From the NCBI GenBank assembly GCA_003242675.1, contig QGVE01000049.1, positions 1 to 17,498 of the forward strand: 17,498 nucleotides of DNA, in the 5' to 3' direction. Within the stretch, counting starts at the first letter, position 1; every line of letters begins with the position of its first letter. The translations under genes and the position numbers were made by a program. Source of the DNA: Bacillota bacterium. Its GTDB lineage: Bacteria > Bacillota_E > Symbiobacteriia > Symbiobacteriales > Symbiobacteriaceae. Below, in pieces: positions 4,138-17,010 of this stretch. The notes under the pieces were generated by a model, which was not told where the DNA came from, made no database searches, and saw only the letters and a list, made by a program, of their open reading frames with translations.

Positions 4138-4617
4138 CTATCGGCCCAGTCCCATCGCGGCTTCCAAGGCCCGCTCCAGCATGCGGTTCCACCGATGATG
4201 CAGCCGCCGCGCCTCGTCGGGTGCGACAAAGATCCGGCGGGCCGATTCGAACGCTGCGCCGAAGGGCAGCACCTCGGTGATGTCGACGCGGTAGAAGGCC
4301 TGGTAGCCGATCCTGGGGTACTTGCCCCCAGGACGCCACTGGTCGTTCTCGCTGTGGTCCACCTGGACGAGCCCGACGAGGGTGGGCACGCCCCGGACGT
4401 AGCCCTCCTCCATCGTTTCCCGCAGTACGCATGCCTCCGGCGACTCGCCGGGCTCGCGGTGGCCGCCGGGGATGTCCCATCCGCGGTGGTTCAGGTCGAC
4501 CAGCATCAGCTTGCCGTGCAGGAAGCAGAGGCTGTGCACGCTGGTGATCAGCTCAACCGGCGGCAGCTCGGCCGGGCGCCCCAGCCACTCCAGCCGGATG
4601 CGTCCGGCCCAGTTCAC
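4138..4617 (-). CDS. Nudix hydrolase
   Basis: 159-residue cytoplasmic Nudix protein, expected to cleave a nucleoside diphosphate linked to another moiety using Mg2+; the substrate is not evident. The Nudix box spans about residues 52-74. It has the spacing G-x5-E-x7-RE-x2-EE with catalytic E58, R66, E67, E70 and E71 present, but the canonical glycine after the EE pair is Tyr73 and the preceding residue is Gly. The start is the GTG at 4617; an in-frame stop lies 24 nt upstream, so no earlier start of note is possible. The ribosome site is poor. It lies upstream of the amine-oxidase-N-like gene. Confidence 0.88.
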   Translation of the reverse strand: MNWAGRIRLEWLGRPAELPPVELITSVHSLCFLHGKLMLVDLNHRGWDIPGGHREPGESPEACVLRETMEEGYVRGVPTLVGLVQVDHSENDQWRPGGKYPRIGYQAFYRVDITEVLPFGAAFESARRIFVAPDEARRLHHRWNRMLERALEAAMGLGR

Positions 4618-4750
4618 GTACTCGACGTCACCGATGCCCGTTCACCCCCCACAGGCCCGATGCCATCCGACGTGCGGTGCCGCGGAGCCCGCCTTCCGCC
4701 ACCCCAGGGCAGGGCGTACCCGGTGCGGAACAGCCGTCTCGGGCGAAGAG

Positions 4751-4873
4751 TCACGGCCCTCCGGAGGCAACCGTTGTCCCCGGCGAACGGTCAAGGCCCG
4801 CCCGGAGGGCCCCCGTCGGTCCCGGCAAACGGTCACTGCCCATCCGGAGGGCCACCGTCGCCCCCGGCGTCCG
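4751..4873. repeat. Tandem array, three diverged ~41-bp units
   Basis: Units at 4751-4790, 4791-4832 and 4833-4873 each start TCA followed by a GGCCC- or GCCC-like block, then CCGGAGG(G), a CCGT core and CCCGGC, and end near CGG or CCG. Lengths are 40, 42 and 41 bp, so no reading frame is kept across the array. The last unit abuts the stop codon of the lipoprotein gene at 4874. The rest of the 4618-4750 gap shows nothing further. Confidence 0.6.
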
Positions 4874-6322
4874 TCAGCGGGTCCACTCATCCACCGGAAC
4901 GACCACCACACGGTCCCAGCCCGAGCCGTAGATGCGCCCGTCCGCGCCCGCGGTCAGTCCCCACACCGGGTCCGGCAGCCAGGTCCTGGCCAGCACGTTC
5001 CCGGACCGGTCCAGCCGCACCAGGTGCGACTCGGGTTTGCCCCTCGCGCCGGTGCCGATGGAGGCGTAGAGGAACCCGTCGCTCCCCCAGGCCAGCCCGG
5101 TGATGGGCGCGACCTCCTCGCCGCTCTCCTGCCCGAACTCGGGAATCGGCCTGCCCCACATCTCCGCCTGACCGGTGGCGGGGTCCCAGAGGAACAGCGA
5201 ACCGAACATGTCCGTCGCCCCGACGAAGCGGCCTTCATCGTACGGCAGCAGGGCGCTGACCGAGCCGCCCCGCGGCGTGCCGTCGATGTACTCCCGCACC
5301 TCGCCGGTCCGCACGTTCACGGCCTTGAACGGCACGTTGTAGACCCAGCCGTCGTCCGCCGGTGCGTGCCAGGGGCCGAATCCCTGCACCGCGATCTCAC
5401 GCACCTCGCCGCTGTCTACATCCACCACGGCGAGGCCCCCGTCGAACCGGGCGACGACCCGGCCATCCAGGCTGGCGAAGGGCTCCAGCCCCGGGTGGCC
5501 CAGGAGCCGGAATTCCTTGGCCGCTGCGTCGAAGAGGAAGAGCTGCTCCCGCCGCACGAGGGCGTAAACGCTCCGGTCCGACAGCCGCGTGACGGCCGCC
5601 TCCACGCGGCCCCGGAACGCCTCCTCCAGATCCGCCCGGTGGCGGTTCGTCAGCCCTTCGGTGCCCTGCATCACCGCGGAGGTGAACTCCCGCACCGGCT
5701 GCGGCCCCTCATCGTCCCACCTGTACCAGTGGCCCAGCTCGTCCCGGAGGTGCACCTCGCCGTCCCGCCGATCCATGTAGGCATACGGCGCGCCGGCAGG
5801 CGACCGGGCCGGGCCGAGGTCCGTCACCTGGCCGTCAGCCGTCCGGCGCATCAGGTGGAGGGTCTCCACCCTCCCCACAAGCCGGCCTTCCGCCACCCAG
5901 ACCAGGTCCCCGAGCCAGACCGCGGCCGGGTCGGGCCGCCCGTAGGTGATGCGGCCGTAGGTATAGTCGTAGTCGTGGAGGCGGAAGTGGAAAAGCTCGC
6001 CGTCCTGCCCGCCCCACACGCCGGTCACCGGATCGATCACGAGCCGGCTCACGGCGGGATCCGTGCGCCTCTCCGCCCAAACGGGCAAATCCGGGCTCTC
6101 GCTGATCACGTCGCCGGTGGTATCGACACGCACCCGCGGCGCGCCGGGTTCCGCACGCCACTCGGCTGCGCCCGCCGACGGCGCCGCCGCCACGGCAGCG
6201 CCTCCGTCCTGCGGGGGCAGGGCCGCATCGGGGCCGCCTCCGTCCCGCGGGGGTGAGGCAGCGCCGGCGCATCCGGCCAGGGCCAAAGCCGCGGCAATCA
6301 GGATCGTGCAGGCCCATCGCAT
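4874..6322 (-). CDS. Predicted lipoprotein with beta-propeller-like repeats
   Basis: 482 residues. The N-terminus is a lipoprotein signal: positive start MRW, hydrophobic ILIAAALALA, then lipobox LAGC with Cys18 as the predicted lipidated residue. A low-complexity Ala/Gly/Pro linker runs to about residue 55. The rest is rich in short strands and turns of the type DxxTGxVxxxxxG (WDPATGQAEMWG, VDVDSGEVREIAVQG, VNVRTGEVREYIDG, GAGADGRIYGSG-like), which suggests a secreted beta-propeller. No enzyme motif is recognised. The start at 6322 has a GGGAGG site 7 nt upstream. It follows pflA by only 50 nt on the same strand with only a weak 5-bp hairpin between, so some transcription from the pfl operon is likely, although no functional link is known. 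Confidence 0.82.
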   Translation of the reverse strand: MRWACTILIAAALALAGCAGAASPPRDGGGPDAALPPQDGGAAVAAAPSAGAAEWRAEPGAPRVRVDTTGDVISESPDLPVWAERRTDPAVSRLVIDPVTGVWGGQDGELFHFRLHDYDYTYGRITYGRPDPAAVWLGDLVWVAEGRLVGRVETLHLMRRTADGQVTDLGPARSPAGAPYAYMDRRDGEVHLRDELGHWYRWDDEGPQPVREFTSAVMQGTEGLTNRHRADLEEAFRGRVEAAVTRLSDRSVYALVRREQLFLFDAAAKEFRLLGHPGLEPFASLDGRVVARFDGGLAVVDVDSGEVREIAVQGFGPWHAPADDGWVYNVPFKAVNVRTGEVREYIDGTPRGGSVSALLPYDEGRFVGATDMFGSLFLWDPATGQAEMWGRPIPEFGQESGEEVAPITGLAWGSDGFLYASIGTGARGKPESHLVRLDRSGNVLARTWLPDPVWGLTAGADGRIYGSGWDRVVVVPVDEWTR

Positions 6323-6372
6323 GGAGGATCCCTCCCGTCAGGTCTATGACGGTCGGGACTTCTTCCCGGTTT

Positions 6373-7143
6373 CTAGGTCACCCTGAGCCCCCGCCGCTCC
6401 AGCTGCGCCCGGATGCGCGCCATCGTATCCGCGGAGGGCGGTTCCACCCCTTCCAGGGTGTAGCGGATCCCCAAGGCCTCCCACTTGTGCTTGCCCAGCA
6501 GGTGGTAGGGCAGGAGCTCCACCCGCTCCACCCCCCGCAGGGTCCGCACAAAGTCCGCCAGAGCCTCCACGTCCTCCGGCGCGTCGCTCCAGCCGGGCAC
6601 CACGACGTACCGGATCCAGAGCGGGATGCCGCGCGCGGAGGCGTAGCGGGCGAAGGCCAGGGTGACCGCGTTGTCCTGGCCGGTCAGCGCCCGGTGCTTG
6701 TCCGGGTTGAGCTGCTTCAGGTCCAGCAGGATCAGGTCGGTGTGATCCAGCACCGGCGCCGCCCGCTCGGGCGTCGCGAACCCGTTGGTGTCGAGGGCGG
6801 TGTGGATCCCGATCTTTTGCGCCTCTTCGAAGAGGCCCGCCACGAAGTCCGCCTGCAGCAGCGGCTCGCCCCCGGTCACCGTCAGCCCGCCTCCGGAGGC
6901 CTGCAAGTACGGCATGTAGGAGCGCATCTCCGCCACCAGGCTCGCAACCGTTCGCTCCTCCCCGCCCCGCGGGTCCCAGGTGTCGGGGTTGTGGCAGTAC
7001 CGGCAGCGGTACAGGCAGCCCTGCAGGAAGACCACGAAGCGGAGGCCGGGGCCGTCCACCGCGCCCATCGAGTCGATCGAGTGCACCCGGCCCACCCGCT
7101 GGGCCGCCGGGAGATCCAGTTGCCTGTATTCGCAGACCAGCAC
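6373..7143 (-). CDS. pflA: Pyruvate formate-lyase activating enzyme
   Basis: 256-residue radical SAM enzyme that installs the glycyl radical on PflB under anaerobic conditions. The 4Fe-4S binding motif C-x3-C-x2-C is CLYRCRYC at residues 43-50, directly after the typical GRVHSIDSMGAVDGPG and RFVVFLQG. VTGGEPLL is the SAM-binding GGEP motif, and LDTNGF, LLDLKQLNP and YHLLGKHKWEALG are the usual later motifs. Length matches the family (about 245-260). The start is the GTG at 7143, with GGGGAGA 6 nt upstream, 12 nt after the pflB stop, so pflB and pflA are co-translated from one mRNA. Confidence 0.96.
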   Translation of the reverse strand: MLVCEYRQLDLPAAQRVGRVHSIDSMGAVDGPGLRFVVFLQGCLYRCRYCHNPDTWDPRGGEERTVASLVAEMRSYMPYLQASGGGLTVTGGEPLLQADFVAGLFEEAQKIGIHTALDTNGFATPERAAPVLDHTDLILLDLKQLNPDKHRALTGQDNAVTLAFARYASARGIPLWIRYVVVPGWSDAPEDVEALADFVRTLRGVERVELLPYHLLGKHKWEALGIRYTLEGVEPPSADTMARIRAQLERRGLRVT

Positions 7144-7155
7144 GTGCTTCTCCCC

Positions 7156-9408
7156 CTACAGGCACTGGTGGAACGTCCGGTTGATCACCTCGAGCTGCTG
7201 CTCCCGGGTGAGCTTGACGAAGTGGACGGCGTAGCCCGAGACCCGGATCGTGAGCTGCGGGTACTGCTCGGGATGCTCCATCGCGTCGAGCAGCGTCTCC
7301 CGGTTGAGGCAGTTGACGTTGATGTGGTGCCCACCGGACATGGCGTAGCCGTCCAGGAGGCCGATCAGGTTGGACACTTGCTCCTCCGTGGTCCTGCCCA
7401 TGGCTCCGGGCACCATCGAGAAGGTGTAGGAGATGCCGTCCAGGGCCGAGGCGTAGGGGATCTGCGCCACGGAGGTGCAGGAGGCGAGGGCCCCCTTGAC
7501 GTCCCGCCCGTGCATGGGGTTGGCCCCGGGGGCGAACGGCTCGCCGGCCTTCCGGCCGTCGGGCGTCGCACCGGTCTTCTTGCCGTAGACGACGTTGGAC
7601 GTGATGGTGAGCACCGAGAGCGTGGGGATGGCGCCCCGGTAAGTCCTGTGCTTGGCCAGCCGGGCGGCGAACTCGTCCACCACCCGGGCGGCGATCTGGT
7701 CCACCCGGGGGTCGGCGTTGCCGTAGGCGGGGTAGTCGCCCTCCCGCTCGAAGTCCACGGCGATGCCCTGCTCGTTGCGGATCGGCCGCACCTTCGCGTA
7801 CTTGATCGCCGAGAGCGAGTCCGCGACCACGGAGAGGCCGGCGATGCCGCAGGCCATCGTGCGCAGGATGTCCCTGTCGTGCAGCGCGAACTGCAGCCGC
7901 TCGTAGTTGTACTTGTCGTGCATGTAGTGGATGATGTTCAGCGTGTTGATGTAGAGCCGCGCCAGCCAGTCCATCATGAGCAGGAAGCGCTCCCAGACCT
8001 CCTCGAAGTCCAGGATCTCGCTTGTGAGGGGCGGCAGCTTCGGCCCCACCTGGATGCCCAGCCGCTCATCCACGCCGCCGTTGATGGCGTAAAGCAGACA
8101 CTTGGCCAGGTTGGCCCGGGCGCCGAAAAACTGCATCTGCTTGCCGATCCGCATGGCGGAGACACAGCAGGCGATGCCGTAGTCGTCGCCCCAGTAGTGG
8201 CGCATGATCTCGTCGTTCTCGTACTGGATGGCGCTGGTCTCCAGCGATACCTTCGCGGCGAAGCGCTTGAACCCTTCCGGCAGCCGCGGGGACCAGAGCA
8301 CCGTCAGGTTCGGCTCCGGCGCCGGGCCCAGGTTGTAGAGCGACTGCAGGATGCGGAAGCTGGTCTTGGTGACCAGGGTCCGGCCGTCGACGCCCATGCC
8401 GCCGATGGACTCCGTCACCCACGTGGGGTCCCCGCTGAAGAGCTCGTTGTACTCGGGCGTGCGCAGGAAGGCTACCATCCGCAGCTTGATCGTGAGCTGA
8501 TCGATGAGCTCCTGGGCATCCTGCTCGGTGATCTTGCCCTGCCGCAGGTCGCGCTCGATGTAGATGTCCAGGAACGTGGAGATGCGGCCGAGCGACATCG
8601 CCGCGCCGTTCTGCTCCTTGATGGCCGCCAGGTAGCCCATGTAGGTCCACTGCACCGCCTCGCGGGCGTCCATCGCCGGCCGGCCGACGTCGCAACCGTA
8701 GCGCGCGGCCATCTCCTTCAGCTCGTGCAGGGCCTTGATCTGCTCGGCCAGCTCCTCCCGCAGCCGGATGGCGTCCTCGTCCATCACGTCCGGCTCGGTC
8801 CAGGCCAGCTCCAGCTCTTTCGCCCGGATCAGGTTGTCCACGCCGTAAAGCGCCACCCGCCGGTAGTCGCCGATGATGCGCCCCCGTCCGTAGGCGTCGG
8901 GCAGGCCGGTGATGATGCCGCTCTTGCGGGCCAGGCGCATCTCGGGGGTGTACGCGTCGAACACGCCCTGGTTGTGGGTCTTGCGGTATTGGGTGAAGAT
9001 CTTGCGCAGCTCTGGATCGGGCTCCTGGCCGTAGGCGGCCAGCGAGGCCTCCACCATCCGCCACCCGCCGTAGGGGTAGATGGAGCGCTTGCCGGGCTTG
9101 TCGGTCTGCAGGCCGACGATGATCTCCAGATCCTTGTCCAGGTAGCCCGGGCCATAGGCGAGGATCGACGACGGGGTATGCGCGTCGATCTCCAGCGGGG
9201 CACGGGTGGCCTGCTCTTGCTTCAGGATCGCGAAGAACTTCTCCCACAGCTTCTTGGTGCGCTCCGTGGGGCCCGTGAGGAAGGAGCCGTCGCCTTCGTA
9301 GGGGGTGTAGTTGCGCTGGATAAAGTCCCGGACGTCGATGCGCTGCCGCCACAGCCCGGGAATGAAACCTTCCCATGCAGGGTGGTCTGCGAACTCGATG
9401 CGGAACAC
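7156..9408 (-). CDS. pflB: Formate C-acetyltransferase (pyruvate formate-lyase)
   Basis: 750 residues; converts pyruvate and CoA to acetyl-CoA and formate by a glycyl-radical mechanism in the cytoplasm without oxygen. The catalytic cysteine pair is Cys414-Cys415 (in [10 protein letters not shown]) and the radical glycine is Gly725 in RVSGYAVHF, both at the expected places relative to E. coli PflB (418/419 and 734). Substrate-site features such as [12 protein letters not shown] and [15 protein letters not shown] are present. The start is the GTG at 9408, with GGAGGAGG 7 nt upstream, giving MFRIEF. The reading frame remains open to 9603, but that extension crosses a repeat array and does not look like PflB. 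It leads the pfl operon with pflA 12 nt downstream. Confidence 0.97.
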
Positions 9409-9480
9409 CGGGCATCCTCCTCCGTGGGATCTGCGTTCCGTAGGTAGGGTGCCGCGGTTTGCACGCCACCAATCGGATGC

Positions 9481-9660
9481 AGGAGGGGAGTGCATGGGTG
9501 CTGGGACCACATGACGGAGGCGCCTGGACGGGACGCCCTGCACGTAGGCAGCCTGGAGCGCTGGGGCAAGATGTGGTAGGCACCCGGGCTGGACGACCTG
9601 CACGTAGGCAGCCCGGGGCGCTGGGGCAAGATGTGGTAGGCACCCGGGCTGGACGACCTG
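9481..9660. repeat. 60-bp tandem repeat (two near-identical units plus one diverged)
   Basis: Positions 9541-9600 and 9601-9660 are identical in 58 of 60 bases, differing only at two transitions (T/C and A/G). The preceding 60 bp (9481-9540) align as a third, strongly diverged unit (shared CAGG-CGTCC, CCT..., CCCAGC when read on the minus strand). In the 9601-9660 unit, AGCCCGGG and CCCGGGCT are inverted arms that can form an 8-bp stem. It lies in the leader region of pflB, 73 nt before its start. The rest of the 9409-9874 gap holds no clear promoter; a 10-bp inverted pair (CACGGATTGC near 9686, GCAATCCGTG near 9784) is visible. Confidence 0.85.
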
Positions 9661-9874
9661 AACGCTGGGAGTCTAGACCCTTGCGCACGGATTGCCGACC
9701 CGCTTGCCTCACACAAGCTTTCTTTCCTCCGCTCCTTGGTGGCCTGACCTGCGAATCTGTTGTCCCGCAGCCCGGCCCTAACGCGCAATCCGTGGGAGTT
9801 TCACTGCCTGGCGCCCAGGAAACAGCCTCGCTCACCTGGACCGGGGCAAACCCGTTTCGGAGATCCGGCACCAG

Positions 9875-10054
9875 ATGAGCGCCAGATACGCAGGCGGCGC
9901 GAAAGTCCTCCTGCCCGAGGCAGAGAGGAAGCCGGCTCTGCGCCGTTGGCCCATGACCATCGCCGACGTTTACCTGCCCGATCAACCGCAGGGAGCTGCC
10001 GCCCGCGTCAGGGCATGGGCAGCGTCGATCCGGGCGGAACTGTCCCGTGAGTAG
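9875..10054 (+). CDS. Possible small protein, 59 residues, unrecognised
   Basis: ATG at 9875 to TAG at 10052-10054. Third codon positions are mostly G or C (roughly three quarters by eye), as in the real genes here, and the residue mix looks protein-like: MSARYAGGAKVLLPEAERK, then a block around RRWPMTIADVYLPDQPQG and a C-terminal amphipathic helix ending ELSRE. No family recognised. The frame continues open upstream of the ATG, so it could be longer, or be the surviving end of a decayed gene. A GGAG lies about 12 nt before the ATG, which is weak. It is convergent with the nuclease gene ending at 10089. Confidence 0.35.
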   Translation: MSARYAGGAKVLLPEAERKPALRRWPMTIADVYLPDQPQGAAARVRAWAASIRAELSRE

Positions 10055-10088
10055 AAGCGGCCGGAAACACTCGGGCAAGACAACAGGG

Positions 10089-11171
10089 CTAGACGGCCAT
10101 GTGTTCTTCGCGCAGAGCTTTGAAGCGGTACGCGTCGGCATAGCGGCGCAGCGCCTGATAAACGTACCGCTTCTCGTCCGGAACCGGCCTCAGGGGAACG
10201 CCCATCCGGACAAGCAGCTGGTCGATGGACTCGAAGCTCAGACTGCGCGCGTCGATCTCGACCAACGTGAAGCCAGCCTGGGCGCTGAGCACCCGCTTTA
10301 GCCGGTCGCGTTCCTGCTGTTGCAGCAGTTGGTCCTCGCTGGGGTAGAGACCGGTAACCCTGTAGTGCTGGGGACCTTGAAACTCTAGCGCAATCTTGTA
10401 CTCGGGGAGCAGCACGTCATACTGCAGCCGGGCGCCGGTCTTGCGGTTTACCAAGCAGTTCAGTTCACCGTTCTCAACCACGTACGTCCCCGTGCGAAGC
10501 TCGACCTTCCGGGCCATCAGGAACTGGCCAAAAGAGTACCCCGCTTTGTGTTCCACTCGGGCCTTGTCCATCTCAAAAAGCGCGAGCTCCTGGCGCCGCT
10601 TGTCCTCCGCGGGATTGCCGGCCCTGAGCGCGAACTGCTTCCGGCGCGAGGCGCGCCGCACCTCGCCCTCCAAGTAGCCGCTCTCCGTCAGCACGCGGAG
10701 GTACTTGATGAGGCTGTTGCGCGAATATCCCGTTCGCTCCATCAGCACCTGGTAAGTAAACGGTTCCTCAAGCATGCGGATGACGCCCCAGACCCAGCGG
10801 GCTGCATGGGGCAGAGTGTGATCCAAGAGGATGTCGTCCTGCAGTTTCAGGGCGGCACTCGCGGCTGGCCAGATCAGGCGCGCTTCAATCGTGCGCCCGG
10901 TCCGGACGTACTCCAGCCACCCCCGCTCTTTCAATTTCTGCAGATAGCTGCGCAGACTGCCCTGGGAGAGCCCGGTGAGGTCGCGCAGGTCAGCGAAGGT
11001 AAACCCCCTGCCGACCGCGCGGAGCATCCTGAGGACGGCCCATAAATACCGGGCGCCCTCCGGCAGGGTCCGATCCTTCCACAAGAGCTCGGGCACATGG
11101 ACTTCCATCGGTTGCCGCAACTCCAATCGCACGTCGGCAAGCTTCTCCCTCGCACTGCGGCGCTTCGGCAC
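10089..11171 (-). CDS. Double winged-helix protein with C-terminal PD-(D/E)XK/Vsr-like nuclease domain
   Basis: About 360 residues. Residues about 30-97 and 108-180 are two copies of one winged-helix module. Each starts with a [K/L]D-x-TLP-x-[G/A]ARYLW-like helix (ARYLWAVLRML; ARWVWGVIRML), then a helix-turn-helix (LTGLSQGSLRSYLQKLKERGWLEY; RTGYSRNSLIKYLRVLTESGYLEG). Residues about 240-310 resemble EDxHD/Vsr-type PD-(D/E)XK nucleases: YDVLL with D252, IALEFQG with E263 and Q265, PQHY with H269, an ERDRLK helix with D289, then FTLVEID. A DNA-binding nuclease or homing-type function is inferred, not shown. The start is uncertain: GTG at 11171 has GGGAGGGG 6 nt upstream; GTG at 11204 would add 11 residues. 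A strong AGGAGG upstream points instead to an out-of-frame ATG at 11211. Confidence 0.8.
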   Translation of the reverse strand: MPKRRSAREKLADVRLELRQPMEVHVPELLWKDRTLPEGARYLWAVLRMLRAVGRGFTFADLRDLTGLSQGSLRSYLQKLKERGWLEYVRTGRTIEARLIWPAASAALKLQDDILLDHTLPHAARWVWGVIRMLEEPFTYQVLMERTGYSRNSLIKYLRVLTESGYLEGEVRRASRRKQFALRAGNPAEDKRRQELALFEMDKARVEHKAGYSFGQFLMARKVELRTGTYVVENGELNCLVNRKTGARLQYDVLLPEYKIALEFQGPQHYRVTGLYPSEDQLLQQQERDRLKRVLSAQAGFTLVEIDARSLSFESIDQLLVRMGVPLRPVPDEKRYVYQALRRYADAYRFKALREEHMAV

Positions 11172-11187
11172 GGAACTCCCCTCCCGC

Positions 11188-11225
11188 TCAGTGGAGTTCG
11201 CCACCGATCATATGTTTTCCTCCTG
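11188..11225 (-). promoter_or_regulatory. Strong ribosome site with out-of-frame mini-ORF before the nuclease gene
   Basis: On the minus strand AGGAGG (about 11224-11219) is followed 7 nt later by ATG at 11211, which opens a 7-codon frame (MIGGELH) ending in TGA at 11190-11188. That is 16 nt before the likely GTG start of the nuclease gene at 11171. It could be a leader peptide for coupled translation, or mark a frameshift near the true start. Confidence 0.4.
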
Positions 11226-11264
11226 TTCTGTCAGATAATCCCATCCAATAGCTGGCTTGGTTCG

Positions 11265-12260
11265 GAGCCAAGACGAAGACGTAGTTCTGTCCGCTCGCTT
11301 CGGCAGGAGCCCCGAGACTTCTTTCCAGTTGCCCATGCCTTGCCACTCACGCCATGCGTTCTCACAAACTGCGTGAACGTCCACCGAAAAGGGGTTTCTC
11401 GAAGAGCTTCCCCGGTTCTCCGGCTGCCCGCGCGTTTGCACTGGCGCCGTGTATTCTCGCAAACCATGTGAACGTCATCCGGAAAGAGCTCTTCGGAGAG
11501 CCCCGTCCGCTTCCCCTAAGGAGGCCTCACGCGGGGGATGTACCCATTCTCCCACCCCATGCTTCTCCCACTCAGCCGCTCTCGCAAGAGATGGAAACCT
11601 TATCCCTAGAACGCCTACCTCCTTTGCGCCTGTGCGCCGAAGGTGGCCCAAATGTGCCACGCTTTCTCACTAATGCCAGGCGGTCTCGCAAGACACGTAA
11701 ACGTTGTCCGAGAAGGGCTCCCTCAGAGAGCTTCCTCGCTTTTCCAACCGCGCACACCCTACCACTCACCCCATGCCTTCTCACAAACAACGTGAACATC
11801 ATCCGAGATGAGCTTTGTCCGGGAGCTTCATCGGGCTTGCAGTTGCCCACGCCATCCCACCCACGCCATGAGTTAGCGCAAACCAGGTGAACGTCGGCCG
11901 AAAAAGGCTCTTTCGGAGGGCTTCATCAACTTCCCCAAGCAAGGCCTCACGCCGGGGATACACGCATCCTCCCAGGCCATGCTGCTCGCGCCAGCTGTAC
12001 TCGCAAGAGAGGGGAACTTTATCCCTGAAACGCCTGCCTACTTTCTCCGGGAGCGCGCCTGGGCGCCGAAGGTGGGGTTCGAGGCTGCCACGGTTCCTCA
12101 CGAATACCCTGCGTTCTCGCAAGACACGTGAACTTCATGCCGGAAGAACTCCACCGGTCTTGTCACAGAGCACCATCCCATGCCGGGACACGCCCAGTCT
12201 CGCCCCACCACGCTGCTCCGGCCACCACGTCGTGCGAACTTCGGGCCAGAAACGCTCATC
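11265..12260. repeat. 1-kb degenerate tandem array, ~95-125-bp monomers in a ~420-bp higher-order repeat
   Basis: A core resembling TTCTCGCAAACCACGTGAACGTC recurs in at least ten degenerate copies, with the GTGAACGTC part near 11281, 11373, 11468, 11592, 11697, 11792, 11887, 12012, 12128 and 12232. Spacings are about 92, 95, 124, 105, 95, 95, 125, 116 and 104. The series from 11373 and from 11792 match copy for copy at offsets of 419, 419, 420 and 431, so a four-monomer block of about 420 bp is duplicated. Several monomers carry an inverted pair after the core (CCGAAA...TTTCGG at 11898-11916). It fills the gap between the divergent nuclease and LiaF-like genes; no ORF is kept through it. Confidence 0.82.
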
Positions 12261-12348
12261 GCCAGAGGATTCTCGTGCGCGTGAAGGGGCCCGCACCGGG
12301 CCGACGTCCAACCCAGTAGACGAGGCGAATCCAGAGGAGAGGTGACCC

Positions 12349-13752
12349 ATGGACCAGCGAGATCCGCGCGCCGATCTGCGCCCCGAGCCGGACGACCAGC
12401 CCCGCGGGACTCCGGAACCGACCACGCCGCCGCCTCCGGTCTCGCCGGTGCCCGCATACCGGCCGCCGCGCACCGCGCCTTTCCGCACGTCGGCGCTTGG
12501 AGAAGAGGCAACGTCGAGTCAGGACAGCGCTGCATCCGAGGACCGGCGCGGCGCGCGGGAGGGTACGCACGAGCCGGCCGCTACCGACACCCGTTCCAAA
12601 ACCAGTGACGCCGGCCCGGCCAGCCCCGGAAAGCCTGGCAGTGGACAAGGCGGGGCGGAAACGCCTAGCGGCGATCCGGAGGCCGGGTCTCTCGGCCCCG
12701 GGGCCGTCCCCGGTGCTGCCCCGGACCGTTCGGGAGATCGCGGCGGGGCTGCCGCATCCCCGATCCGCCGGCCGTCCTGGCCGCAGCACAGCCCGCCACC
12801 GCCCCGGCGCAGCAAGCACCGGTCCCTCGCCGGGCCGCTCGTCCTCATCTTCGTGGGCCTGTTCTTCTTGGGGCAGAGTTTGGGCCTGATTCACTGGTCC
12901 TTCTGGGAGGTCATCTGGCGGCTCTGGCCGATCTGGCTCATCGCTGCAGGCCTGGACATGCTTTTCGGCCACCGGGGCACGTGGGGCAGGCTTGTCGTGG
13001 CTGGGATCACCATAGCCCTGGTGGCAGGCATCGTACTGGGCGTACAGCCCATGTGGTCCGCCGAGCAGGGACCTGAGCGGGTCGCGGTGCAACGGGCGGA
13101 ACCTGTGCCCATCGCCCAACCGCTGGAAGGGATCACGTCGGCGGAGGTGCGGATCGAGTCCACCGTGTCGTCCCTGCGGCTCCGGGGCGAGGCCATGACA
13201 GATCACCTGATCATGGGAACGGTCTTGCCGCTGACGGGTGAGCAGGTCCGGTGGACCTACGACACGGCAGGGGACCGGGGCTTGTTCCGGCTCTATTCTG
13301 AGCCGCCCACCGGGCCATCGGGATCGCACCAGGGGCACTGGGACCTCGTGCTCACCGACAGGATCCCCATCACCCTGCGGATCAGCACGGGTGTGGGGGA
13401 AAGCGACATTGACCTGTCCGAGCTCACGGTCCCGGACCTGGACGTAGACGCGGGAGTCGGCCGCGTCGCGATCACGCTGCCGGAGCAAGGGGCTGTGACC
13501 GGCCGGATTCACGCCGGGGTCGGCGAGGTCACCCTTCGGGTTTCGGCTGACCGGCCGGCCCGGATCCGGGTCGACACCGCACTGGGAGGCCTCAGGGCCG
13601 ACGCCGGCTTCCTGAGGCAGGGCGACGCGTACGTGACGCCGGCATATGCGGAGCGAACCGCCGCGCTAGAGACCGACGCCGTAGACACCGACGCGATAGA
13701 TTTGGTGGTCTACGGCGGGGTGGGTTCCGTGCATCTCATCCTGCTCGACTGA
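12349..13752 (+). CDS. LiaF-like toast-rack membrane protein with long disordered N-terminus
   Basis: 467 residues. Residues 1-157 are Pro/Gly/Ser-rich and probably disordered. Three membrane helices follow (about 161-181, 186-206, 213-233), resembling the LiaI/LiaF-type membrane region (FVGLFFLGQSLGLI, WPIWLIAAGLDMLFG). From about 265 to the end is a beta-solenoid 'toast-rack' domain with repeated GVGESDIDLSEL, GVGRVAITLP, GVGEVTLRVS, GLRAD and GGVGSVHLILLD motifs, as in DUF2154/LiaF C-termini. Relatives sense or damp cell-envelope stress through two-component systems, but no such system is beside it here, so that role is only a family-level suggestion. The ATG at 12349 has a strong GAGGAGAGGTGA site upstream. 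The charged tract RRSKHR before helix 1 favours a cytoplasmic N-terminus. Confidence 0.85.
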   Translation: MDQRDPRADLRPEPDDQPRGTPEPTTPPPPVSPVPAYRPPRTAPFRTSALGEEATSSQDSAASEDRRGAREGTHEPAATDTRSKTSDAGPASPGKPGSGQGGAETPSGDPEAGSLGPGAVPGAAPDRSGDRGGAAASPIRRPSWPQHSPPPPRRSKHRSLAGPLVLIFVGLFFLGQSLGLIHWSFWEVIWRLWPIWLIAAGLDMLFGHRGTWGRLVVAGITIALVAGIVLGVQPMWSAEQGPERVAVQRAEPVPIAQPLEGITSAEVRIESTVSSLRLRGEAMTDHLIMGTVLPLTGEQVRWTYDTAGDRGLFRLYSEPPTGPSGSHQGHWDLVLTDRIPITLRISTGVGESDIDLSELTVPDLDVDAGVGRVAITLPEQGAVTGRIHAGVGEVTLRVSADRPARIRVDTALGGLRADAGFLRQGDAYVTPAYAERTAALETDAVDTDAIDLVVYGGVGSVHLILLD

Positions 13753-13848
13753 GCGGAGCCCAAAGATGCACCCAAGACCCCTCCGCCTTCCAAGTGTCCG
13801 AGGAAAAGACGGGTACCACACGGCGGGCACACAAGCACCCCTGGCCCT

Positions 13849-14128
13849 CACCCACGGGAATGGACGTCCAGCCAGGAAGATGCAGAACCCCACCCTTCAC
13901 CCAAGGGCCGGGTCGCACGTCCTTAGGCCACGCAGAGTCAGAATGCCCCGCCTCGCACCCCAAGGGCCGGGATACACGTTCCCCGGCCATGAAGACGCAG
14001 AACGCCCGACCCTTCACCGAAGGGTCGGGATATACGTTTCTCAGGCCACGAACACCCAGAATGCCCCACCCCACACCCAGGGGCCGAAGTGAACGCAGAA
14101 CGCCCCACCCCTCACACAGGGGTGGGGC
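13849..14128. repeat. Tandem array of ~57-bp hairpin-forming units with a dimeric higher-order repeat
   Basis: Units begin at about 13849, 13898, 13954, 14015 and 14072 (lengths 49, 56, 61, 57 and 41), with a partial unit from 14113. Each runs CACCC..AGGGCCGGG..ACACGT..., then GGCCA, then CAGAAC or CAGAAT and CCCCACC. Units 1, 3 and 5 carry CAGAAC and units 2 and 4 carry CAGAAT with GGCCACG, so the real period is a dimer of about 117 bp. Unit junctions form hairpins: CGACCCTT/AAGGGTCG at 14007-14027, and a perfect 11-bp stem with 5-nt loop at 14102-14128. Indels between units exclude a reading frame. It lies downstream of the LiaF-like gene. Confidence 0.8.
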
Positions 14129-14130
14129 TT
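14102..14130 (+). terminator. Strong hairpin ending the 57-bp array, possible terminator
   Basis: Bases 14102-14112 pair perfectly with 14118-14128 (11 bp, loop CACAC). It is followed by TT then ACATCTT rather than a true T-run. It may terminate the LiaF-like transcript about 350 nt after its stop, or simply be the last repeat hairpin. Confidence 0.3.
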
Positions 14131-14162
14131 ACATCTTACATGTGCGTGGCCTCTGCCTTCTC

Positions 14163-14421
14163 CACCGCGCCGGGATCGGCCGCCTTTCTCCCCGCAACAG
14201 GGTCCCGCTGTTCCTGAACTATTCCCTCTCCGCCGCAGCGGGACTCGCCGCCTTTCTCCGAACGGCAGCGTTCCACTGTTCCCGGCCCATGCCCGCAGCG
14301 GATTTCGCCGCCTTCCTCCAGCGGCAACGTTCCACTGTTCCTGGCCCCGGCCTCCCCGTCCCAGCGGGACTCGCCGCCTTCCTCCCCACAGCACAGTCCC
14401 GCTGTTTCGCCACTTCCCTCA
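14163..14421. repeat. Tandem array of four ~60-68-bp units
   Basis: Anchored on GCGGGAC-TCGCCGCCTTCCTCC, units begin near 14170, 14238, 14298 and 14364 (offsets 68, 60 and 66). Each ends with a (GT)TCC(C/A)(G/C)CTGTT block and a C/T-rich tail. In the last unit AGCGGGAC (14363-14370) and GTCCCGCT (14396-14403) are perfect 8-bp inverted arms; units 2 and 3 have the same arms with mismatches. Units 1 and 4 share GTCCCGCTGTT and an ACT(A)TTCCCTC tail, while 2 and 3 share CGTTCCACTGTTCC, hinting at a three-unit higher-order period of about 194 bp. It overlaps the end of the minus-strand gene ending at 14419 by a few bases. Confidence 0.75.
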
Positions 14422-14739
14422 CCGCCGCCCCCGGAGACCGCCGGGGATGACCCGCAGCCGGGGCGGGTGCCGCACGCGCCACCGGGCGTATCCCACCGCC
14501 GCGCCGACCACCCCGCCGGCGACGTGGAGAGCCCCCAGCAGTGCAATCAGGTTCAGCGGCCGGGAGAAGTAGCGCATGGCGACCCGCGCGTCGAGCAGGG
14601 TACCGTCCACCAGCAGGATCGTCAGCAGGCAGACCTCAAACAGGGGCATGGCCAGGCCAAACCCCAGCAGGGCACCTACCAGGGTCGAACGACCGAATCG
14701 CACACCCTCGCGCGCCGGGGGCGAATGGCTGATTCGCAC
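14419..14739 (-). CDS. Small two-helix membrane protein, unrecognised
   Basis: About 106 residues from a GTG at 14739; a further in-frame GTG at 14754 adds five residues but lacks a ribosome site, while the 14739 start has GGGGGG about 8 nt upstream. Two hydrophobic helices: STLVGALLGFGLAMPLFEVCLLTILLV and PLNLIALLGALHVAGGVVGAAVGYA, followed by a very basic C-terminal tail rich in Arg. No family recognised. It follows the DUF420 gene by about 50 nt on the same strand, so it may belong to the ctaB operon. Candidate roles in oxidase assembly would rest on that position alone. Confidence 0.65.
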   Translation of the reverse strand: MRISHSPPAREGVRFGRSTLVGALLGFGLAMPLFEVCLLTILLVDGTLLDARVAMRYFSRPLNLIALLGALHVAGGVVGAAVGYARWRVRHPPRLRVIPGGLRGRR

Positions 14740-14787
14740 GTTTAAGCCCCCCACGAACCGCCGGCACGGCCCCCTGCTCCGAAGTGC

Positions 14788-15216
14788 TCAGGCTGGGTAC
14801 GGGAAGCGCAGGAGGCCGTACACGAGCACCCCGGTTGCCGACACGTACACCCAGATCGGCCACGTTACCCTGCCCAGCCGCCGGTGGGCGGGCAGGGCGC
14901 CCCTCAACCCCCTCCAGACCGTGACCACCACCAGGGGCGTCTGCACCATGGCCAGCGTCAGGTGGCTGAAGAGGATCGCGAGGTAGATCGGCCGCAGCCA
15001 GCCGGGACCGGTGAAAGGGGTCAACCCGCCCAGGGAGACACGGATGACGTACAGGATGAAGAACAGCGCCGCCAGGGTCGTGGCCGTCAACATCGCCCGC
15101 ATGTGCCCGTCCCGGTCGCCCCGCCGGATCCGCCGGATCCCCAGGAGAATGAAGACGCCGCTGACCGAAATCAGGATGGCGTTGACCGTAGGCAGCACGG
15201 CCAGGATGCGATCCAC
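14788..15216 (-). CDS. DUF420 family (CtaM/YozB-like) membrane protein
   Basis: 142 residues with four membrane helices: AVLPTVNAILISVSGVFILLG, MLTATTLAALFFILYVIRV, PIYLAILFSHLTLAMVQTPLVVVTV and VTWPIWVYVSATGVLVYGLL. Histidines in GHMRAM, FSHLTLA and AHRRLGR fall where DUF420 proteins keep theirs; in S. aureus the family member CtaM is needed for haem-copper oxidase activity, and B. subtilis YozB belongs to the same family. The start is the GTG at 15216, with GGAGGAGA 6-8 nt upstream; the frame is open to 15291 but that extension is not family-like. It follows ctaB on the same strand, which fits a role in cytochrome oxidase maturation. Confidence 0.88.
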   Translation of the reverse strand: MDRILAVLPTVNAILISVSGVFILLGIRRIRRGDRDGHMRAMLTATTLAALFFILYVIRVSLGGLTPFTGPGWLRPIYLAILFSHLTLAMVQTPLVVVTVWRGLRGALPAHRRLGRVTWPIWVYVSATGVLVYGLLRFPYPA

Positions 15217-15338
15217 TGCATGCTCTCCTCCCCGCCCCACCCGCGGCCTCGGACCGGTCTCAGGGTTCACCGGACAGGCCACGGCAGGCATGGTCGTCAG
15301 GTGCTGCGTGAATTACGCGGAACGGCCGGCACTTGCCG

Positions 15339-16235
15339 TCACGCCCGGGTCACGTCCAGCATCATCGCCAGGAAGACCGCGAACAGGTAGAGCAAGGACC
15401 AGCCGTACGTGCGGTGGGCCCAGTCCATCTGCGGCGGCCTCTCCCGCAAGAGGCCGATCGCGGCTGCGACCATGGCGGCCCCGAGCAGCACGGAGGTCCA
15501 GAGGTAGAACCGGCCCACGGCGCCGGTCCAGTACAGCAGGGCCGCCGAGGGAACCAGGAGCACCGAGTAGAGCAGGATCTGCCACTTGGTCACCCGCTCC
15601 CCCCGCACCACGGGCAGCATGGGGACGCCGGCGCGCGCATAGTCCTCGCTGCGGAACAGTGCCAGGGCCCAGAAGTGCGGCGGCGTCCAGACGAAGACGA
15701 CCAGGAACATGATCACGGCGGCCCAGTCGAGCCTCCCGGTCACCGCGGCCCACCCCACCAGCGGAGGGGCCGCGCCCGCTGCGCCGCCTATGACGATGTT
15801 ATGCGCCGTCGAACGCTTCAACCACATAGTGTAGACCAGGACGTAGAACAACAGCCCGGCGGCGGCCAGCAGGGCCGTGAGCAGGTTGACGGTGAGCAGG
15901 ACCAGGAAACTGAGCACCCCCATGACCACGCCGAAACGCAGGGCCTGCTCGGGGGCCAGACGTCCGGCCGGCAGCGGCCTGCGCCGCGTGCGGGTCATGA
16001 TCGCGTCGATGTCCCGGTCGTACCACATGTTGATGGCGTTCGCCGCGCCGCAGGACATCGCCAGGCCGGTCAGGGTGACGATCGTCAGACCCAGCGGCGG
16101 CAGCCCCCCGGCCGCCACCCACATGGCGGCGAAAGCGGTGATGAGGAGTAGGATGACGATGCGCGGCTTGGTGAGCGCCACGTAGTCGCGCAGCACCTGG
16201 CCAACCTGAACGCGCTCGCGCACCTGTGCGAACAT
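15339..16235 (-). CDS. ctaB: Protoheme IX farnesyltransferase (haem O synthase)
   Basis: 298-residue UbiA-family membrane enzyme that adds a farnesyl group to haem b to make haem O for haem-copper oxidases. The first Asp-rich motif is N69-x3-D73-x3-D77 (NMWYDRDID), followed by the typical MTRTRRRPLPAG. The second conserved region is YTMWLKRSTAHNIVIGGAAGAAPPLVGW, then WTPPHFWALALFRSEDYARAGVPMLPVV. About eight to nine hydrophobic helices are visible. The ATG at 16235 has a GGGGG-rich ribosome site 6 nt upstream. It heads a minus-strand group with the DUF420 gene and a small membrane protein, and is divergent from the SCO1/SenC gene. The intervening 775 bp contain the 36-bp array. Confidence 0.97.
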   Translation of the reverse strand: MFAQVRERVQVGQVLRDYVALTKPRIVILLLITAFAAMWVAAGGLPPLGLTIVTLTGLAMSCGAANAINMWYDRDIDAIMTRTRRRPLPAGRLAPEQALRFGVVMGVLSFLVLLTVNLLTALLAAAGLLFYVLVYTMWLKRSTAHNIVIGGAAGAAPPLVGWAAVTGRLDWAAVIMFLVVFVWTPPHFWALALFRSEDYARAGVPMLPVVRGERVTKWQILLYSVLLVPSAALLYWTGAVGRFYLWTSVLLGAAMVAAAIGLLRERPPQMDWAHRTYGWSLLYLFAVFLAMMLDVTRA

Positions 16236-16352
16236 GGGCCGCCCCCTTTTCTTTCTTCGGTGTTCCCCAGTTGGTTTTCTGAGGTGACCCTCCGGACCGG
16301 GTCCCGCGCCGGGATCGGGCCCAGTCTACCGAGAGGCCCCCCGGTCCCGACT

Positions 16353-16377
16353 CCGTGGCTTCCAACTTCCGCCACGG
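16353..16377. other. 7-bp perfect inverted repeat upstream of ctaB
   Basis: CCGTGGC (16353-16359) and GCCACGG (16371-16377) are perfect arms around an 11-nt loop. It sits between the 36-bp array and ctaB with no T-run on either strand. Role unknown; it could be a transcript structure or a diverged end of the array. Confidence 0.35.
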
Positions 16378-16400
16378 TTGAGGGCGGGTCACGCCTTGAA

Positions 16401-16854
16401 CTGGACTCCCAGGGAGTGCCTGTGCCACGCCCCCCACTGCGCTCCCGAGGCGCGGGCGTACCATGCCCCAACTGCACACCCGAGGGGTGGACGTGCCACG
16501 CCTCCAACTGGGATCCCAAGGAGTGCCTGTGCCACGCCTCCCACTGCGCTCCCGAGGGGTGGGCATGCCATGCCCCACCGGCACATCCGAGGGCTGGACG
16601 CGCCAAGCCTCCAACCGCGCTCCCAAGGACTGCATGTGCCACGCCGCCTACTGTACTCCCGAGGGGTGGACATACCACGCCCCAGCGGCACACCCGGGGG
16701 GTAGACGTCCCACACCCCCAACTGCAATCCCAAGGAATGCACGTGCAACGCCCCGAGCTGCGCCACCCAAAGAAGGGACACGCCACACCCTGACCGCACG
16801 ACGTGCCAAGCCCCCGGACTGCGCTCCCAAGGAGTTCACGTGCCACGCCCCGGT
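16401..16854. repeat. 36-bp tandem array, 13 units, with 107-bp three-unit higher-order repeat
   Basis: Units begin at 16401, 16437, 16472, 16508, 16544, 16579, 16615, 16651, 16686, 16722, 16758, 16795 (24 bp, deleted) and 16819. Lengths are 35-37 bp apart from the short one. Consensus is CTGCGCTCCCGAGGGGTGGA followed by CGTGCCACGCCTCCAA. Units 1-3, 4-6 and 7-9 align as three copies of a 107-bp block (first members share CCCA.GGA.TGC.TGTGCCACGCC; third members carry GCACA.CCGxGGG). Each unit can form a hairpin, GAGG-G-GTGG paired with CCAC-G-CCTC around a 5-nt loop. There are no unrelated spacers and single-base length changes break any reading frame. Confidence 0.9.
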
Positions 16855-17010
16855 AGGTCACCGAAATTTGACGGCCCCCTGCACAATTCCTCCCGCTTTT
16901 CTCACTTTTTCGATGCCGATATTACGAAACGCGCCCGGATGAGCAGGAATCATCTGAGTTCACGGATAATAAATGCACCTCACAGCACTCCCACGTGGGG
17001 GGTCGTTCCT
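16855..17010 (+). promoter_or_regulatory. AT-richer leader of the SCO gene, promoter region probable but not pinned
   Basis: Composition drops sharply in GC after the array, with tracts such as GAAATTTGACG (16863), CACTTTTTCGATG and GGATAATAAATG (16962). This is the only AT-rich stretch near the divergent ctaB and SCO genes, so a promoter is expected here. TTGACG at 16866-16871 and GATAAT at 16963-16968 are tempting boxes but do not pair at a usual spacing. Confidence 0.3.

Follow-up and report, generated by a model that had tools for sequence, protein, structure and literature searches.

Local intergenic tandem arrays in a Symbiobacterium-type genome segment and their possible tie to a predicted winged-helix/Vsr-like nuclease family

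Satellite DNA is, to our knowledge, generally regarded as scarce in bacterial genomes. Bacterial minisatellites, or variable-number tandem-repeat (VNTR) loci, including the mycobacterial interspersed repetitive units (MIRU), consist of intergenic head-to-tail units of tens of base pairs that are specific to their locus and vary in copy number, and iterons are repeats of about 20 bp beside the gene of an initiator. Repetitive extragenic palindromes (REP) and bacterial interspersed mosaic elements (BIME), with their REP-associated tyrosine transposase (RAYT), are characterized in the portions of two reports used here as dispersed extragenic palindromes that are clustered, lie mostly in convergent or unidirectional gaps and have the gene beside its repeats (PMC2817692; PMC3733652). 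The portion used of a report on Borgs describes tandem repeats with perfect units, about half of them in open reading frames, on an extrachromosomal element (PMC9879509). The subject of this work is a stretch of 17,498 nucleotides from a Bacillota bacterium (GCA_003242675.1, contig QGVE01000049.1; this whole stretch is the window below), in which six tandem arrays, W1 to W6, lie between genes, one of them upstream of a gene for a predicted winged-helix/Vsr-like nuclease. We read these arrays, with a probability of about 0.5, as locally amplified intergenic minisatellites of Symbiobacterium, a subset of which would be cis-arrays of the winged-helix/nuclease family. The arrays are as follows.

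4742..4869, no strand assigned: W1, unit of 41-42 bp, about 3 copies, in the gap 4618-4873; Tandem Repeats Finder (TRF) score 151
9500..9680, no strand assigned: W2, unit of 60 bp, about 3 copies, upstream of pflB and adjoining a truncated DUF5946 gene
11322..12170, no strand assigned: W3, unit of about 95 bp, 6-7 copies within a higher-order block spanning about 420 bp, located upstream of the winged-helix/nuclease gene
13878..14135, no strand assigned: W4, unit of 58-59 bp, 5 copies (the final two short), hairpin of at most 10 bp
14165..14418, no strand assigned: W5, unit of 60-68 bp, 4 copies, in the same gap as W4
16384..16852, no strand assigned: W6, unit of 36 bp, 11 copies, located in the cyoE-sco1 gap; the first ten copies form 107-bp ABC trimers

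The score of each array was its ungapped self-match at a single lag, compared with that of 200 dinucleotide shuffles of the same stretch. By this measure all six arrays of the original prediction, which had been made from the letters alone, are real: z was 14.5 for W1, 45.9 for W2, 35.0 for W3, 21.6 for W4, 14.7 for W5 and 119 for W6, and none of the 200 shuffles reached the score of any of them. Twelve coding control tiles scored in the same way gave z of at most 2.1 in ten cases and of 8.4 and 9.9 in the other two. The head-to-tail units therefore repeat above chance, as in a VNTR locus or minisatellite. Monomers of about 41, 60, 105, 57, 64 and 36 bp had been proposed, and all hold up to within a few base pairs except the third, which is 95 bp. 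The arrays had also been placed in six gaps; they occupy five, since W4 and W5 share 13753-14418. With gaps defined by a simple codon-model gene caller and an array gap defined by z ≥ 10, five of the seven called window gaps of at least 150 bp contain an array. Higher-order periodicity, expected in four arrays, is clear in two. In the identity matrix of W6, the first ten copies are 75-91% identical to those three units away and 44-78% identical to their neighbors (39-91% over all copies, so the units are not perfect), and in W3 the 95 bp repeat is nested in the block of about 420 bp; W2 has a weak sub-period of 28-32 bp. Both W3 and W6 lie in divergent gaps. A CRISPR array was considered and rejected because the whole unit repeats head to tail with no unique spacers, and the window matches CRISPR-DR23 only at a score far under the cut-off, at a place outside the arrays. 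The positions of W1, W3, W4/W5 and W6 coincide with negative GC skew (window 4501-5250, 11251-12250, 14001-14500 and 16501-17000).

W3 is the array that lies upstream of the following gene.

10089..11204, minus strand: predicted winged-helix/Vsr-like nuclease gene, 371-aa product predicted to contain a pair of winged-helix domains followed in the description by a Vsr-like nuclease; W3 lies upstream of the gene's start

The genomes used for comparison are labeled G001 to G005, and CyoE of the window is 89% identical to that of G005 (which we take to be S. thermophilum), 88% to G001, 86% to G004 (presumably S. terraclitae), 67% to G002 and 62% to G003. Together with LiaF-like proteins, whose named matches are from S. 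thermophilum and S. terraclitae, these CyoE matches place the window in or next to Symbiobacterium. In G001, a homologous 200-bp array is found upstream of the orthologous nuclease gene, so W3 has been kept between two species directly upstream of the gene. The DNA examined contains six members of the nuclease family at four independent loci, and an array lies 78-162 bp upstream of every one of them, in comparison to 19 of 1709 other genes (1.1%) with an array at such a place. The link between array and gene is conserved. The predicted model of a family protein contains tandem winged helices, as in iteron/initiator modules, and its C-terminal domain is predicted to adopt a Vsr-like fold with conserved D, H and D, with Glu at residue 235 in only 16 of 23 proteins; one homologue, the 225-aa P0040, is omitted from this family alignment. 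By analogy with initiators on their iterons, the winged helices may allow the protein to bind the array upstream of its own gene, and the bound array would act as an autoregulatory operator cluster. The nuclease domain may in addition nick or cut the repeats, which would lead to their amplification and homogenization.

Comparison of orthologous gaps provides evidence of how such arrays change. The stretch next to sco1 serves as a landmark.

16849..16989, plus strand: sco1-proximal conserved stretch, untouched by W6; 141 bp at 77% identity to G005 and 136 bp at 71% to G001, with a weaker alignment in G004

About 140 bp beside sco1 are thus conserved in the window, G005 and G001 and more weakly in G004, and the remainder of the cyoE-sco1 gap holds the 36/107 bp array in the window, an unlike 40 bp array in G005 and no array in G004 and G001, where the gap is short. 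One position can therefore carry unlike arrays, a point that the original prediction had raised for checking. A second gap of G005 contains an 80-bp array, flanked by a gene end and a conserved stretch, that G004 and G001 lack. Two further orthologous loci of G005 and G001 contain S1, a hairpin family modeled on G005, with periods of 117/127 and 86/126 bp. Hairpin identity between the species is 69 and 72% at these loci and spacer similarity does not exceed that of shuffled sequence, yet each array is internally 86-97% alike (at the second locus, G001 has one unit only). At the gaps compared, then, arrays differ between species in both presence and unit and are homogenized within themselves. 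This replacement of spacers amid high identity within arrays, along with the W6 trimers, suggests that units may have been multiplied and homogenized by unequal recombination or replication slippage. One S1 locus has 3 versus 4 copies of a 127-bp unit, with a jump in identity at the array for which chimeric assembly is possible. Around the S1 array at about 3000-3600 of L231 (G001 contig C99), identity to G005 falls from about 100% to about 88%, and this drop would be explained by recombination there or by a contig of chimeric origin.

Whether units are private or shared differs between arrays. Profile searches of approximately 1.1 Mb and then 1.5 Mb of sampled genus DNA matched W3 to the G001 array and revealed no relative of W1, W2, W4, W5 or W6. 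The search for W1 covered sampled DNA only, none of five whole genus or family genomes matched W6 in a search made without a positive control, and W4/W5 gave a single 31-bp match in G003 (E 0.0035). In three relatives, pieces of W2 match a coding motif of the Arg-decarboxylase-like kind that belongs to one orthologous gene, which is probably chance or captured coding DNA. Overall, 14 of 45 scanned units have a match outside their own array. The genome-wide hairpin searches, in which 150 of the thousands of initial candidates in each of five genomes were scored, uncovered S1 at a minimum of 16 places in G005 (13 of those listed with two or more copies) and on at least six G001 contigs, and did not find it among the 150 candidates scored in each of G002-G004. 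Among the matches listed, S1 steps are locus-specific, 74-172 bp and mostly head to tail, with one inverted pair; S1 lies in 0/15 divergent and 8/15 convergent gaps, the 16th place being unclassed, in comparison to 100/336 and 34/336 of all G005 gaps. In the window, S1 gave only a match to its short GC-rich stem (E 0.0055). A second family, S3, has a step of 114-117 bp at 5/6 G005 and 7/16 G001 loci among the matches listed, the remainder being single copies. The S3 unit is a hairpin with a 17-bp stem that keeps a constant step though the spacers of different loci look unlike by eye (L159 9613-10238, L127 2184-2955, L124 11686-12082). That the arrays are fully unrelated is not borne out: W3 is orthologous to the G001 array, and S1 and S3 recur as arrays at many G005 and G001 loci.

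The style of local satellites seen in the window recurs in gaps of G005, G004 and G001; arrays do exist elsewhere, and shuffled sequence does not match them. A first G005 sample of 760 kb has arrays in 26/216 gaps of at least 150 bp (12%) and 23/73 of at least 400 bp (32%), and a second of 400 kb in 7/120 (6%) and 7/33 (21%). These fractions do not bear out the suggestion of a different satellite in nearly every gap across the genome. The corresponding counts are 9/76 and 8/23 in G004, 5/12 at 150 bp in G001, and 0/9 and 0/3 at 150 bp in the more distant G002 and G003. For TRF scores of at least 300 and a period not divisible by three, 19 arrays occur in 1.54 Mb of genus DNA versus 1 in about 1.22 Mb of other DNA. 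At scores of at least 150 with the same restriction, G004 has 25 per Mb, G001 66 and the window 171. Strong arrays, but not weak ones, thus set the genus apart, and the window is densely populated even by the standard of the genus. Three candidate correlates were rejected: enrichment at 1.0-2.75 Mb (the terminus) in G005, which by eye appeared in 12/19 versus 2/19 stretches of the first sample, was 4/9 versus 2/11 in a fresh sample (p = 0.22); loss of mismatch repair, with MutS1 over the cut-off in 5/5 genomes; and loss of SbcD, which is over the cut-off in G001, G004 and G005. In the G005 sample, group II intron matches (L107 216-511 and L108 16681-18465) are a second source of large gaps, and a long array of about 75 bp units (L170 10652-12174) has an imperfect GCGCAGAA..TTCTGCGC palindrome seen by eye.

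Several of our results weigh against our reading and its view of the genus as special. A first control set of 59 gaps, with 2 at z ≥ 6 and 0 at z ≥ 10, was judged too lenient in light of a larger control, in which z ≥ 10 was reached by 7/68 Streptomyces gaps (3/20 at 400 bp or more) and 4/40 Dictyobacter gaps (3/18), in addition to 0/25 Sphingopyxis and 0/8 E. coli gaps. At TRF scores of at least 150, Streptomyces has 91 arrays per Mb to 44 in G005, and with periods divisible by three removed the two are nearly equal (15.2 and 14.7). W1, W2, W4, W5 and W6 have no convincing match elsewhere, and 31 of 45 scanned units match nothing beyond their own array. These private units also favor a wholly neutral account, quite possible in our estimation, in which all arrays are VNTR-type minisatellites born of slippage and unequal recombination in slack intergenic DNA, and their proximity to the nuclease gene is accidental or follows from the long gaps in that place. 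The W6 trimers, the conserved sco1-side stretch spared by arrays, the position of W2 at the site of a truncated gene and the locus with 3 versus 4 copies fit this account as well. What it does not explain is the array at six of six nuclease-family genes against the 1.1% background, the retention of the hairpin while the spacer is lost, and the skewed gap orientation of S1. Streptomyces also illustrates how artefacts arise: the periods of 6/7 of its high-z gaps are divisible by three, which indicates missed coding repeats. That the arrays as a whole are artefacts, either of assembly or from coding repeats that the gene caller overlooked, is nevertheless very improbable given that lags are not divisible by three in 15/26 gap arrays of the first G005 sample (near the two thirds expected of non-coding DNA), that G005 is a single 3,566,135-bp contig and that units vary between copies. 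Under our preferred reading of local minisatellites with a nuclease-linked subset, we take the five window arrays other than W3 to be either by-products that are tolerated or the arrays that belong to relatives of this protein at other places in the same genome; for these five, a neutral origin is as good as any. A more ambitious version, which we consider rather unlikely, would have a genus-specific Rep-like protein with a Vsr/homing-type nuclease recognize hairpin or core motifs in its own upstream arrays, with its cutting driving local amplification, homogenization and spread, each paralogue having its own repeat family and the driver being unrelated to RAYT.

Selection for structure offers another explanation, in which the arrays would be kept as RNA or single-strand DNA folds such as 3′-end hairpins acting on mRNA. 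Hairpin potential had been proposed as a style shared by the window arrays; when each copy was folded against its own shuffles, only W4 (mean z -2.2, 5 copies) exceeded its composition, the others giving 0.8 (W1), -0.3 (W2), 0.4 (W3), -1.0 (W5) and -0.1 (W6). Folding of unit consensuses disagrees with this test in that W3 (z -2.2) and W6 (z -2.9) are also better than shuffles, and 12/45 consensuses have z < -2, a count that includes a mis-picked 15-bp unit in coding sequence (window 12364-12479). Covariation is similarly divided. W4 has two compensated pairs among five copies. In the S1 stem, 9 cells are changed on both sides, which 0/500 shuffles reach, but the number of pairs so changed (3) is reached by 199/500, and related copies inflate both counts; S3 has no covariation beyond shuffles. 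S1 avoids divergent gaps, but for array gaps in general an excess of convergent orientation is seen only at 150 bp or more (p 0.016) and not at 400 bp or more (p 0.42). A search of Rfam gave no plausible match in the window arrays or in those of six G005 stretches. Taken together, a structural role for the arrays appears improbable. Movement of REP/BIME elements by a RAYT transposase is less probable still, and the least so of all the explanations weighed here. S1 does resemble REPs as a dispersed, clustered palindrome of convergent or unidirectional gaps, but its steps of 74-172 bp run mostly head to tail, and PF01797, positive in 5/14 control genomes, matches none of G001, G004 and G005, in agreement with the contrast to REP/BIME families drawn in the original prediction.

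The surroundings of W2 include a damaged gene.

9827..10051, plus strand: DUF5946 3′ remnant, tblastn 77% over residues 73-147

This remnant lacks its front half at the site where W2 sits, and an intact copy with a PF19371 match lies beside the orthologous nuclease gene in G001 (L152 8679-9125). G001 also has pflB-like matches that are 78 and 94% identical to that of the window (L151 10568-12787; L153/L152), the 94% one being split over two contigs.

Tandem arrays occupy between one fifth and one third of the large gaps sampled in this genus and are replaced while a hairpin core survives, which makes it a natural system in which to follow how satellites arise and evolve in concert within a small genome. 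Should the array-linked nuclease prove to act on the arrays, bacterial satellites would have a protein driver distinct from RAYT, and how local repeats originate could be tested directly.

A search of open-licence papers turned up no account of these arrays, and each described system matches them in part. Like VNTR and MIRU loci, they are intergenic, head to tail and tens of base pairs in unit length, with locus-specific sequence and perhaps a changing copy number; unlike them, some have a hairpin in common while the period is specific to the locus, and one class is linked to a gene for a protein. As far as the portions cited above portray REP/BIME systems, S1 in G005 is comparable as a clustered dispersed palindrome, and the nuclease gene likewise adjoins its repeats. 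The differences are that the Y1 transposase family was not found in three genus genomes (G001, G004 and G005), that the linked gene is winged-helix/Vsr-like with the array on its 5′ side, and that S1 is mostly head to tail. Borg repeats, to the extent that the cited portion covers them, share the presence of many independent, fast-evolving tandem repeats with intergenic units not bound to multiples of three, whereas Borg repeats are perfect and W6 units are 39-91% identical. The iteron initiators RepE and pi resemble the family protein in their tandem winged helices, by predicted fold, and in having repeats beside the gene, but the units here are 86-250 bp and the protein adds a nuclease domain. 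That domain resembles Vsr and I-Bth0305I in predicted C-terminal fold and conserved D, H and D (EDxHD names the motif of this type of nuclease domain), and it differs from them in its fusion to two winged helices and in a Glu at residue 235 that only 16/23 proteins retain.
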